Part shown: piece by piece, positions 46,272 to 62,237 of the stretch
How the letters are laid out: every line of letters starts with the position of its first letter
Numbering within the stretch: position 1 is the first letter of the stretch
Assembly: GCA_025055285.1 (NCBI GenBank)
Contig: JANWXM010000001.1
Span: 434,001-498,000, forward strand
Direction of reading: 5' to 3'
Origin: Saprospiraceae bacterium
GTDB taxonomy: Bacteria > Bacteroidota > Bacteroidia > Chitinophagales > Saprospiraceae
DNA length: 64,000 nucleotides
Notes under the pieces: generated by a model
What the model was told of the DNA's origin: nothing
Database searches by the model: none
The model's input: only the letters and a program-made list of their open reading frames with translations
Made by a program: the position numbers and the translations under genes

Positions 46272-47576
46272 ATGGAAAAAAGACTCGACCTTTGCCTCCT
46301 GATCATGCTCTCCGTTGAAATGAGCTTTCTCGCTTGCCAGGGCGCACCTAAGACGAATGGGTCCAAATCAAGCGAAAACTCGCCCCCTCAGCCCACACTA
46401 AGGGTCATTGAACCTGAACTCGGATTTACGCCCGACATCAGCGAAGATGCAGCAAAAAATCTTCAAAGAACTAAGGAACTTTTCGCTAAAATTGACAGCG
46501 TAATTAGTAGCTATCCGAGTTATGAAATTGCTAAACAGCATCTTACAGAAAGACAGATTGAAATCTGGGAAAACTAAGAGGAATACCTGAAAGAAGACCA
46601 TTTGGACGTGAGTATATGGGGCTGCAGCTGGTATTGCGGCGGCGGCCCAGATAGTATATTCGCTAGCTCGACCCTGCCTCCAACTAGGCGCTTCAACTAC
46701 GAAGCCAGTAATGCACACGATTTCTCGCTCAGAACTGCTTGGATAGAAGGTGTAGCAGATTACGGAATTGGAGAAAGCATTACGTTCAGGTTTCCTAAAC
46801 AGTCACCACCAGTTACTAAGGTAGAAATCTTTAACGGCTACATGAAATCCGAAAAGGCATGGAAAGACAATTCTCGAGTGAAGCAACTAAAAGTTTACAT
46901 CAATAAAAAACTGTCTTTCGTGCTTAATCTGAAGGACGTTCTTTCGAAGCAAATCTTCCAGCTGGACACTTTACAAGGAACAGATGAAGACCTTTTTCTG
47001 ACTTTTGAAATAACAGAGGTCTACAAGGGCGATAAGTACGACGATGTGGCAATAGCAGAAATTGAGTTCGACGGAATAGGAGTCCACTGTTTTTTGGAAG
47101 GAACATCAATAGCAACTCCAAAAGGGGCAGTAGCGATAGAAAAACTAAGCGTAGGCGACGAAATTTTATCCCTAAATGAGTCCACACAGCAGGTAGAGGT
47201 TTCAAAGGTGCTGGAGTTATATAGCCGGAAGCATCACAATCTCTATGAACTCAACTTCTCAGGTATGGTCATAACTGTTACTGACGACCATCCATTTTAT
47301 TTCAATGGAAAATTCTATTCGGTAAAAGAGAATGAAAAGTATGGGATGCAGAGTTTTCCTTTGAAAGAAGGTCAATTTGTCTATTTTTTAGGTAGTTCAG
47401 GTCTTCAAGCAAAAAGATTGACCGCCATCAGGCGCGTCGATGCATGCCGGGTAGCCTACGCAATAGGAAAACTTGACAGAAACAGGCTATTCTTTGCCAA
47501 TGGATTATGTGCTGCAAGTGAGCGCGCGGCATTTGAGGTGCACCTGTCGCACGGCGCTCGTGAGAAAGCGAAGTAG
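46272..47576 (+). pseudogene. Discoidin-like plus Hint-domain lipoprotein, interrupted by in-frame TAA
   Basis: One reading frame of 435 codons is broken by a TAA at 46575-46577 (codon 102). Part 1 is a lipoprotein signal (lipobox LACQ) and a helical linker ending QIEIWEN. Directly after the stop, in the same frame, comes EEYLKEDHLDVSIWGCSWYC, then a discoidin/NADase-translocation-like domain (NAHDFSLRTAWIEGVADYGI, VEIFNGYMKSEKAW) to about codon 270. A Hint domain follows: Cys273 in GVHCFLEGTSIA, KLSVGDEILSLNE, and the TxxH motif Thr337/His340 in VTDDHPFYF. The C-terminus (FFANGLCAASE) lacks the intein-type His-Asn. The second part has no ATG and only TTG/GTG starts, so it looks like one gene hit by a nonsense change. 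It is more A+T-rich by eye than its neighbours. Confidence 0.75.
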
Positions 47577-47597: not shown

Positions 47598-48623
47598 TCA
47601 GCATGGCGCTGTTGTTTGCACAACCACTTTACCTACAGTTTGGCCGCTCTGAAAAAGGCGAATAGCCTCTTTCAGGTGTTCAAAGGAGAACGTATGGCCT
47701 ACGTGAGGTGGTGTCAGGTGCATTTGCTCTAAATGTTCCAAAATGGGCGGAAGCATTTCGATGCGCTCATACAAGTAGATGAGATTGAAGCCCATTAGGC
47801 TGCGATTTTGTTCTGGCAGAGCCTGCGGGTCAATTTTGGGCCTTGTTAAATAATGCCATAGCAAGCGGAAAAGATTGGGGCGGTCGCCGACGCTTGCGTA
47901 GCGCGATGAGCCAGCAACAATCATGCGCCCCATCGGCGCCAACATGTTCCAAGGTATAGTAAAATATCGCCCTCCAATAGTATCGAAAACGAGATTGAGA
48001 GGGCGACCCTCTAATGCTTTGCGGAGCGCTTTTTCGAAGTTTGGCCCGCGCACCAATACCCGGTCACATCCGTTGGCTTCGGCTATAGCTATTTTATTGG
48101 GATGACCTACTGTACCAACGACGAAGCAATTGTGAGCTTTGGCAATTTTGAGCGCCTGCAAACCTACGCCTCCAGCTACGCTGTGAAGCAGGATATTTTG
48201 TCCTGGTTGTAGAGCGCCTAAGGTAAAGAGACCGTAATAAGCAGTAATAGTTTGTACTAGGTACGCTGCAGCTGTAGTGCAGTCCCAGCCATCGGGAACA
48301 GGTACTACATATTTTTCAGAGATGTTTAAGCCGGTGGCGAAGGCTCCAAAACGCGTAATACCCATCACCCGGTCGCCTATTCGAATACGCGTTACTTTAG
48401 GCCCTGTTGCAGTAACTACTCCTGCATACTCCAACCCGGGCGTAAAGGGCTCTTTTGGCGCAGCCTTGTACAATCCCCATATCGAAAAAATGTCGGCAAA
48501 ATTCAACCCTATTGCTCGGATAGCCACTTGTACCTCATCTTCATGAGGTGGAGGCAGTACTTCCTCGTATAATTGCAGGTTCTTCAAAGAACCAGGACGG
48601 ACTATGTATCGCTTAATTTCCAT
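47598..48623 (-). CDS. Zinc-free quinone-oxidoreductase-like MDR protein
   Basis: A 341-aa medium-chain dehydrogenase/reductase. It has the GroES-like N-terminal fold (IRAIGLNFADIFSIWGLY, FTPGLEYAGVV) and a Rossmann domain with the NADP-binding HSVAGGVGLQALKIAKAHN near 145-163. The Cys/His zinc ligands of alcohol dehydrogenases are absent, so it belongs with the quinone oxidoreductase/VAT-1-like group reducing quinones or enones with NADPH. The family N-terminus MEIKRYIVRPGSLKNLQL sets the start at 48623; the 22 extra upstream codons have no protein character. It converges with the discoidin-Hint gene and diverges from the Omp28-like gene. The physiological substrate is unknown. Confidence 0.88.
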   Translation of the reverse strand: MEIKRYIVRPGSLKNLQLYEEVLPPPHEDEVQVAIRAIGLNFADIFSIWGLYKAAPKEPFTPGLEYAGVVTATGPKVTRIRIGDRVMGITRFGAFATGLNISEKYVVPVPDGWDCTTAAAYLVQTITAYYGLFTLGALQPGQNILLHSVAGGVGLQALKIAKAHNCFVVGTVGHPNKIAIAEANGCDRVLVRGPNFEKALRKALEGRPLNLVFDTIGGRYFTIPWNMLAPMGRMIVAGSSRYASVGDRPNLFRLLWHYLTRPKIDPQALPEQNRSLMGFNLIYLYERIEMLPPILEHLEQMHLTPPHVGHTFSFEHLKEAIRLFQSGQTVGKVVVQTTAPC

Positions 48624-48739
48624 ATCCTGAGAGAACGCGCAAATAAAACTCTTACATTGCGTATACGTATATCCAAAATTCAAATACAAAGGAAGCTATG
48701 CTAATAGCTATTGCCCAAATTCTAATCCGAGAAAATCTC

Positions 48740-60005: not shown

Positions 60006-62237
60006 TTAACGCATAAGTTCCTCTAAGCGATGTTCATAGATATATTTCCAACTAGACACCAACCCCCAATCCTCTCCATCTACGTAGACTCTGCAGCCCT
60101 CTACTCGACCGAGCCATTCAAAAGGCTGTCCTCTCTCTTGTAGATATTGCTCAAATAAAGCTTTTTTCTCGGGTGCTACACTAACGACAACTCGGCTTTG
60201 TGCTTCACCAAAAAGCCAAGCATCTTTGCGAATACTCGGCTTGCTACACACGGTGAAGCCCAACTGCCTAGGCATAGCACATTCCATCAAAGTCACAAAC
60301 AACCCGCCCTCAGATACATCGTGCGCGCTTTGAACCAGCCGCTTGCGAATAATATCGCGCAATACATTCAACATCCGAAATTCCTCTTCTAAATCAAAAT
60401 GCGGACACGGACTATGTTCTACTCGGTGTACCTCCCGAAGATATTCGCTGCTACCTATGTCGTTGCGGCTCTCTCCGAGCAAGTAAATGAGGTCTCCCTC
60501 AGCTTTAAAATCTAGCGTCATGAGCTGCTCCCAGTCCTCCAAGATACCAAGCATGCCTATGGTGGGCGTTGGATACACTGGGATTACCTTTCCATTATCA
60601 ATGTATTGATTGTAGAAACTGACGTTTCCTCCAGTGACCGGCGTATTGAGCTTGCGACAGGCATCACCCATTCCTCGAACGGCTTGAGCAAACTGATAAT
60701 AAACTTCTGGATTGTAGGGATTGCCGAAGTTGAGACAATTGGTTATCGCCACGGGCTCGCCGCCAGCACAGGTAATGTTGCGCGCTGCTTCGCATACCGC
60801 GATCATGGCCCCTCGGTAGGGGTCGGCGTACACATAAGCAGAATTACAGTCAGTAGTCAAAGCAAGCGCTTTTCGAGTGCCTTTCACGTACACTACCGCC
60901 GCATCGGCAGGCCGAGTGCTGGTTACAGTTGCCGTGCGAACCATAGAGTCGTATTGGCGCGTAATCCAGCGCTTCGAGGCAATGTTGGGTGAAGCCCACA
61001 GGGTTTGAGCCACTTGGTACAAATCAGTAGGCTCGGAAATGTCTTCCATACGAAAACGCGCAATCTCAGCAAAATACGCAGGCTCGCGTTGCTCGCGTAC
61101 ATAAACAGGGGCCCCTCCGCCCAACACCAACGAGTTGGCTGGCACTTCCGCTACCTTCTTACCATGCCAATAGTATTCAAGTAGACCTCCCGCAGTTGTC
61201 TCTCCAATCTTTTCACAGGGTAGGTCCCATTTGGCAAATACTGCCTTGAGAAGGTCTTCTTTCTCCGGTTTGCATACGATGAGCATTCGCTCTTGGCTTT
61301 CCGACAGCAAAATCTCCCATGCCTCCATATTTGCATGGCGTTGAGGCACTTTATCCAGATCTATGCGCATACCACAGCCCGCACGAGCGCTCATCTCCGA
61401 AGTCGAACAAGCAATCCCTGCCGCGCCCATGTCTTGCATGCCGACAATTGCACCTGTCTTTATTGCCTCTAAGGTAGCTTCCAAGAGGAGCTTTTCCTGA
61501 AAAGGGTCGCCTACCTGCACAGCAGGCAAGTCCTCATGGCTATCTTCGCTCAGATCCGCCGAGGCAAAGGTCGCTCCATGAATGCCATCTTTACCCGTAG
61601 CAGAGCCGACAATGAATACCGAATTCCCTGGTCCGCCCGCCGTAGCACTTATCGTCTCACCCACTTGTACAATTCCTACCGACATAGCATTGACTAAAAT
61701 GTCGTGGTGGTAGCAGTCATAAAAATACACTTCACCCCCTACCGTAGGAACACCAAAGCAATTGCCGTAGTCACCAATGCCTTTGACAACTCCGGCAATA
61801 AGGCGCTTCATCCGCGGATTATCCGGCTTTCCAAAGCGCAGACTGTTTAGCGCAGCAATAGGCCTAGCACCCATCGTAAAAATATCTCGGTGAATACCAC
61901 CTACCCCTGTAGCAGCACCCTGATACGGCTCGATGGCCGAAGGATGATTGTGACTCTCAATCTTAAAAGCACATGCCAGGCCATCGCCAATATCTACCAG
62001 ACCAGCATTTTCTTCTCCAGCACCCACTAGCAACCGACCTCCCTTACGCGGCAGGGTCTTTAGTTGCAGAATAGAGTTTTTATATGAGCAGTGCTCACTC
62101 CACATTACAGAATAAAGTGAAAGCTCCGTGAAGTTGGGATTTCGACCTAAAATCGCACAGATCTTCTCGTATTCTTCAGCAAGAAGTCCAAGCCTTTTAG
62201 CGGTATCCACCGTCGGAAGTAAGTCGGCTGTAACCAT
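60006..62237 (-). CDS. purL: Phosphoribosylformylglycinamidine synthase subunit PurL
   Basis: A 743-aa purine-synthesis enzyme of the small PurL type, which works with separate PurQ and PurS subunits that are not in the window. It has the family start [17 protein letters not shown], the ATP-binding [20 protein letters not shown] near 95-114, and two tandem halves, the second with [10 protein letters not shown] and [13 protein letters not shown]. The C-terminus includes [19 protein letters not shown]. The start at 62237 keeps the usual length, and a -7 box lies 46 nt upstream. The TlpA-like and prmA genes follow closely and may be read from the same promoter. Confidence 0.96.

Follow-up and report, generated by a model that had tools for sequence, protein, structure and literature searches.

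The gene under study lies at positions 46272-47576 on the plus strand of the window, by which we mean the whole 64,000-nucleotide stretch of Saprospiraceae bacterium DNA that was analysed, and it forms a frame of 434 codons before the final stop when an in-frame TAA (codon 102) is counted. This TAA, at 46575-46577, is the sole interruption of the frame, and as written the gene yields only a 101-residue lipoprotein stub. The original prediction held that the part downstream of the stop has no ATG; this is true of its beginning, but in-frame ATG codons occur at fragment residues 89, 230 and 257, every one of them within a domain. The earliest listed start after the stop is a TTG at 46602, and a product started there would carry no export signal. 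No second copy of the gene was seen in this genome, where the one further match (E 0.2, 22% identity) is not credible.

Read through the TAA, the gene is predicted to encode an exported lipoprotein composed of a lipid-anchored Cys, a helical stalk, a GCSWYC motif, a discoidin-like domain of the glycan-binding type and a C-terminal Hint domain (Table 1). The sequence FLAC, with Cys22, we take to be the lipoprotein-type signal motif. Neither Pfam nor NCBIfam profiles matched codons 1-101 at E up to 1; this N-terminal part is continuous with the remainder of the protein in two orthologues from sister genomes (L022 and L023) and is helical in a structural model of L022. The post-stop part matched PF25302 (NADase_transloc) at 163.3 bits (cut-off 27) over profile positions 1-146 of 146, and the discoidin part matched NF047619 at 141.9 bits. 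Further along, the post-stop part matched both Hint_2 (PF13403, 38.3 bits, cut-off 28.4) and PT-HINT (PF07591, 36.4 bits, cut-off 27.7).

Table 1. Features of the interrupted lipoprotein gene, in window coordinates
Feature	Position	Strand	Remark
N-terminal part: lipoprotein-type signal and helical region, 101 codons to the stop	46272..46574	+	
In-frame TAA	46575..46577	+	two orthologues have a sense codon at the aligned column
Discoidin / NADase_transloc domain	46578..47087	+	Pfam match 46629-47072
GCSWYC motif	46620-46637	+	inside the discoidin / NADase_transloc part
Conserved His, codon 272	47085..47087	+	residue -1 of Hint; C-terminal residue in relatives lacking Hint
Hint domain and short tail	47088..47573	+	profiles; HINT fold in the model of orthologue L022
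Cys273	47088-47090	+	within the Hint part
T-D-D-H	47280-47291	+	within the Hint part
FFANGLCAASE	47490-47522	+	within the Hint part

Most of this architecture had been proposed from the sequence beforehand. The single frame across the TAA was borne out, there being no second in-frame stop, and profile matches agreed with the proposed succession of lipoprotein, discoidin/NADase-translocation and Hint parts. Cys273, Thr337 and His340 were correctly placed in the window translation, and Hint profiles matched codons 273-434 of the region (codons 270-434) assigned to that domain. The reported absence of a C-terminal His-Asn was likewise confirmed, and a C-extein is absent too.

The AlphaFold2 model of L022 had a mean pLDDT of 73.3, with the ten-residue blocks of its Hint part at 78-96 apart from one at 69. 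Its Hint part aligned best with Tetrahymena BIL2 (6y75; Z 22.6, rmsd 1.5, 144 residues aligned), followed by 2lwy (Z 19.7) and the Hedgehog Hint domain (1at0; Z 16.6, rmsd 2.0, 131 aligned). The window Hint part therefore shows the features by which the Hint superfamily is recognized, namely a profile match, the HINT fold (in orthologue L022) and Cys273 together with TxxH.

Orthologues and the internal stop codon

We searched for the post-stop protein in 60 genomes, comprising G000, 36 same-genus and 23 same-order genomes, and retrieved matches at E 0.001 or better in 21 of them (G000 included), mostly to the discoidin domain only. The whole protein occurs as one open frame in two of the 59 other genomes, both of the same genus. 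These are Saprospiraceae bacterium SKYG121 (G018), with an orthologue of 429 amino acids (L022, the same as L003) that is 80% identical over the post-stop part, and Saprospiraceae MAG-360 (G026), with an orthologue of 426 amino acids (L023, the same as L004) that is 63% identical over that part. Both have a sense codon at the stop column, and five upstream genes keep the same order in G018. Downstream of the intact G018 orthologue there is a CRISPR-like array (L003:2716-3951; 19 copies in one repeat family, spacing 64-67 bases, repeat start GTTTCAATTCCAACAGGTGCGATTACAGT), in the place where the window has an alcohol-dehydrogenase-like gene (47598-48689). A partial match to the Hint part (51% identity), perhaps a second copy, was found at the very start of a G026 contig (G026:C70:1-228). 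Reading of the same-genus matches covered 17 loci minus L005, L009, L011 and L017. Twelve other matches were lipoprotein-like proteins of 472-501 residues (L007 among them is cut at 418 by the locus end) with discoidin domains and no Hint seen; the Hint of L019, a long and unrelated protein, ends in HN.

The comparison with sister genomes that had been proposed as a check thus returned intact orthologues of 429 and 426 residues, each with a sense codon at the stop. Homologues ending near codon 101 were also sought, and none was found among those read; a natural gene boundary at this point is ruled out on that ground, and the reading of one split gene was upheld. Because the same-genus orthologues are intact with a sense codon, the stop is, judging from these alignments, a lone nonsense mutation or a sequence error and not a gene boundary. 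Pairwise dN/dS to L022, with dS >1, was 0.156 for the pre-stop part, 0.046 for the discoidin part and 0.122 for the Hint part with its tail; in the same comparison dN was 0.229 for the Hint part versus 0.067 for the discoidin part.

For the surrounding genes, we picked 28 window/G018 main-frame gene pairs by eye, setting the remaining rows aside as shadow frames and omitting window parts for which no G018 counterpart was retrieved (most of 20-38 kb). Two of the 28 alignments held a stop on the window side, one of them preceding that gene's own start codon, so that only the Hint-lipoprotein gene has a stop inside the window gene. With no internal stop in the 27 other compared genes, these pairs gave no sign of TAA recoding, nor of many errors. 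Residue changes confined to the window copy outnumbered those confined to G018 by 27:13 in the split gene (p 0.04), while two neighbour genes gave 44:37 and 36:14, the latter (window 60012-62237, minus strand) being itself uneven (p 0.003). Set against the pooled neighbours (80:51), the split gene was not exceptional (Fisher p 0.58). Decay of the window copy was considered and rejected, since its excess of changes does not exceed that of these two neighbours. As the split gene has no more lineage-specific change than they do, the stop appears to be either recent or false.

Whether the stop exists in the organism at all is a fair question, and we rate a pure assembly or sequencing error, with the gene intact in the cell, at a little short of even odds. 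The genome is a draft of 93 contigs, changes are in no excess over the neighbours and constraint is strong on either side of the stop; however, a single internal stop among 28 compared genes indicates that the sequence is generally clean, and a true recent nonsense mutation would look identical. Far less probable is a functional stop, with read-through or restart giving two products, or with a switchable allele. The TTG soon after the stop and the constraint downstream could be read in its favour, but both orthologues have a sense codon, a restarted product would lack an export signal and the other compared genes carry no internal stop. We also found no direct or inverted repeat of at least 10 bases in 46425-46725, and hence no switching device is visible at the site. 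Among the origins named in the original prediction, the switchable allele accordingly found no support, and nonsense mutation or sequencing error was retained, the stop being absent from both orthologues. The sequence does contain the interruption, but it is an ordinary one and carries little weight beyond marking the window copy as probably dead or misread.

Relatives with and without a Hint domain

Using the discoidin part as a profile (A2), we mined overlapping samples of phylum, class and family genomes for relatives. At E 1e-15, A2 retrieved matches in 8 of 395 phylum-wide genomes, 21 of 395 in the class sample and 9 of 199 in the family of G142; at E 1e-25, matches were retrieved in 5 of 13 and 5 of 35 genomes of two further families. 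A scan of public genomes with two peptide patterns gave eight loci, among them ones from Prevotellaceae, Tannerella, Candidatus Azobacteroides and two Pedobacter. Duplicates (L003, L004 and L050, equal to L022, L023 and L028) were dropped before counting, and reading of the matched frames left 44 distinct loci (L077 included). A coarse lipobox pattern was present in five of the 44, a count made on stop-to-stop frames in which some were missed. Many relatives may be plain secreted proteins, the status of exported lipoprotein holding for the window protein and its orthologues. Two further homologues are apparently broken, L033 by an in-frame TAA and L035 by a scrambled frame.

At 130 bits or more against the discoidin profile, a line drawn after seeing the data, there are 32 distinct loci, 13 with a Hint domain and 19 without. 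All 19 Hint-less proteins end in His followed by a real stop codon (for example DGIDVH, EGTGHH, DGEGDH, FDGPSH and YLMGAH), and in 17 of them this His lies exactly 17 residues from a conserved Tyr (16 cases counted by script, and L059 by eye); L049 falls short of that length by one residue and L061 by two, and both keep the terminal His. Each of the 13 Hint-bearing loci has the same count of 17 residues from the Tyr and then, without any linker, the Hint Cys; in 12 of them this Cys is immediately preceded by that conserved His (for example FDGIDVH followed by CLAKGT). The exception, L032, has Leu at -1 and His at -2 with the junction length unchanged. Below 130 bits, a C-terminal His is present in 3 of 12 loci (L029, L034 and L063); L033, L035, L036, L037, L038, L046, L048, L064 and L065 end otherwise. 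In L029 (L029:2698-3240, Pedobacter sp. BAL39), a Hint-less protein with most of the discoidin core missing (profile 62-152), the end is still GISVH. Forms of one secreted protein with and without Hint therefore occur in nature and share the junction residue, and this comparison suggests self-removal of the tail at the very point where relatives without a tail have their natural end.

The stop codons of the 23 Hint-less loci that end in His (22 distinct, L050 included) are TAA in 14, TGA in six and TAG in three. No Hint remnant was detected in the 900 bases downstream of these 23 loci (hmmsearch, E up to 10, three forward frames, stops masked). Loss of the Hint by a simple nonsense change at Cys1 was considered as an origin of the Hint-less form; the varied stops and the lack of a downstream remnant speak against it.

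Placing Hint presence on a maximum-likelihood tree built from 35 discoidin rows (34 of them different) requires six changes. At least five of these are forced by well-supported branches (three in an earlier 34-row tree, which also required six in total), and a single change occurred in 0% of 200 bootstrap trees. Both gain and loss of the Hint would be compatible with the tree. The Hint tree itself has long branches and weak forks. Hint and discoidin distances gave a Mantel r of 0.57 (45 of 5000 permutations as high), or 0.44 when L032 was left out (9 of 5000 as high), a correlation that is indicative of partial co-inheritance only.

Predicted cleavage at the Hint junction

Cys1 and TxxH are present in all 13 Hint-bearing loci, with a block-F-like F-x-x-[NR]-[GT] following, and His-Asn is found in none of them, the window included. 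One residue past the place of His-Asn, 12 of the 13 have a Glu (11 detected by regex and L024 by reading; L032 lacks it), which is invariant in a 10-row Hint alignment (A5) and is followed by 0-22 residues in those 12 loci. With A5 as the query, matches were found in 16 of 390 class genomes, the discoidin-linked Hints among them, and of the others read to the end the Hints of L090, L094, L096, L098 and L100 end in HN. Two other matches, L091 (217 residues) and L093 (201 residues), are short exported-looking frames that are almost Hint alone and whose Hints could act on other proteins. In L091, GTE follows block F; L093, in which the first profile position is not Cys and the match contains stops, may be degenerate.

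Based on these sequences, the reading we favour, at a probability of about two in three, is that the window gene is a lipoprotein gene cut by one stop and that in its intact relatives the Hint is hydrolysed off before Cys1, leaving a C-terminal His. The first Cys of the Hint would form a thioester, assisted by the Thr and His of TxxH, and hydrolysis of this thioester would let the Hint part leave. The mature protein would then have the conserved His as its last residue, just as Hint-less relatives do through translation alone. A thioester at Cys1 followed by hydrolysis would be the least demanding step, going by intein chemistry as set out in the available portions of the literature (PMC4031507, PMC7765530). 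Neither splicing nor C-terminal cleavage is expected because there is no C-extein or Asn. A cut before Cys1 would keep everything upstream on the mature protein, and any linker would stay behind as a tail; that none of the 13 loci has a linker, despite the repeated change of state, fits selection for a native C-terminus, and the free terminal His would be what selection preserves. The self-cleavage at Cys273 put forward in the original prediction is thus plausible and favoured by the endpoints of the relatives, whereas the discoidin part, whose release it also envisaged, would instead stay on the lipid-anchored N-terminal side, and re-attachment of that part gained no support of its own.

An outside alcohol, amine or thiol could instead attack the thioester, leaving the His covalently joined to another molecule such as a lipid, glycan or peptide in a Hedgehog-like transfer. 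We consider this unlikely, even though, like Hedgehog-type Hint domains, the Hint closes the protein and lacks both His-Asn and a C-extein, its fold matches that of Hedgehog (Z 16.6) and the Glu past the His-Asn place in 12 of 13 loci could activate a nucleophile. The 22 residues at most that follow this Glu leave no room for a sterol-recognition region, and Hint-less relatives reach the same terminal His by translation.

Rather improbable, in our estimate, is a fusion that does not cleave at all, in which the Hint is passive or decayed and the His is kept just because the discoidin fold ends with it. Cleavage is itself a prediction from sequence and fold, residue -1 of L032 is not His, and the Hint part is the more variable one (dN 0.229 versus 0.067 for the discoidin part), all of which would suit such a fusion. 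Against this, all 13 loci retain Cys1 and TxxH, and none has a linker although Hint presence needs six changes on the tree. Direct fusion at the domain edge would nevertheless be a less demanding reading of the missing linker, the discoidin domain ending there anyway. No structural role for the terminal His is legible in the models, because the GCSWYC stretch, and in the Hint-less relative L026 the last three residues, are of low confidence (pLDDT <50).

A bolder proposal, and one we regard as doubtful, is that the Glu-ending Hints form a distinct subclass acting as a removable cap. Gained or lost repeatedly at one exact bond, such a chemically active cap would turn the terminal His into a thioester and so allow a lectin-like surface protein of Bacteroidota to be joined to a cell-surface or environmental molecule, as a bacterial counterpart of Hedgehog; in a variant, a Cys of GCSWYC would be the nucleophile, giving an internal thioester. 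For hydrolysis before Cys1, our preferred reading, the endpoint pattern specifies which bond should be cut, what the product would be and how it would end, and it opens the choice between hydrolysis and transfer to direct test. It is this pattern of a removable tail within one family that we see as the part worth following.

Relation to known Hint and discoidin systems

The discoidin part resembles PF25302/NF047619 in matching over the whole domain, and its nearest solved sequence relative is 7ji1 (E 4.7e-10). The model of L026 (mean pLDDT 70.3) is discoidin/CBM32-like (best Z 10.8, rmsd 3.3, 138 aligned). Unlike NADase_transloc proteins, no NADase part was found here, and GCSWYC and the terminal His mark most of the subfamily. 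The PF07591 match above cut-off is shared with PT-HINT polymorphic toxins; however, no toxin domain follows the Hint, the frame ending at 47576, 17 residues past the Glu. Among the open-licence literature, we found no title or abstract start that describes the lipoprotein-discoidin-Hint architecture, and the native role of bacterial Hint domains without His-Asn is, to our knowledge, poorly known.

The family Hint differs from inteins and A-type BIL domains in that the C-terminal His-Asn is absent from 13 of 13 loci. In both fold and sequence, the Hint part is matched best by the BIL2 domain of Tetrahymena BUBL1 (6y75, E 2.5e-11) and a Clostridium thermocellum BIL domain (2lwy, E 4.6e-13), although the title of 6y75 names N143, presumably a C-terminal Asn, which the family Hint lacks. 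With the Hedgehog Hog domain it shares the HINT fold, a C-terminal place after a secreted N-terminal part and chemistry that is possible at the N-junction only, but it is bacterial, has no room for a sterol-recognition region and has a His at the junction, where residue -1 in Hedgehog is Gly.

B-type BIL domains have intein motifs without a C-terminal His-Asn, and cleavage at the N-terminal junction is expected of them, as far as the available portions of two reviews describe the class (PMC4031507, PMC7765530). Similarly, the window Hint has intein motifs and no intein-like C-terminal motif, with activity that is predicted only. It differs from B-type BIL domains in lying at the very C-terminus with no C-flank to cleave, and in having a conserved Glu after block F, a partner family of its own and a fixed junction across the Hint-bearing family. 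By the definitions in those portions of the reviews, the Hint would be nearest to B-type BIL domains, and by position it would be nearest to Hedgehog.
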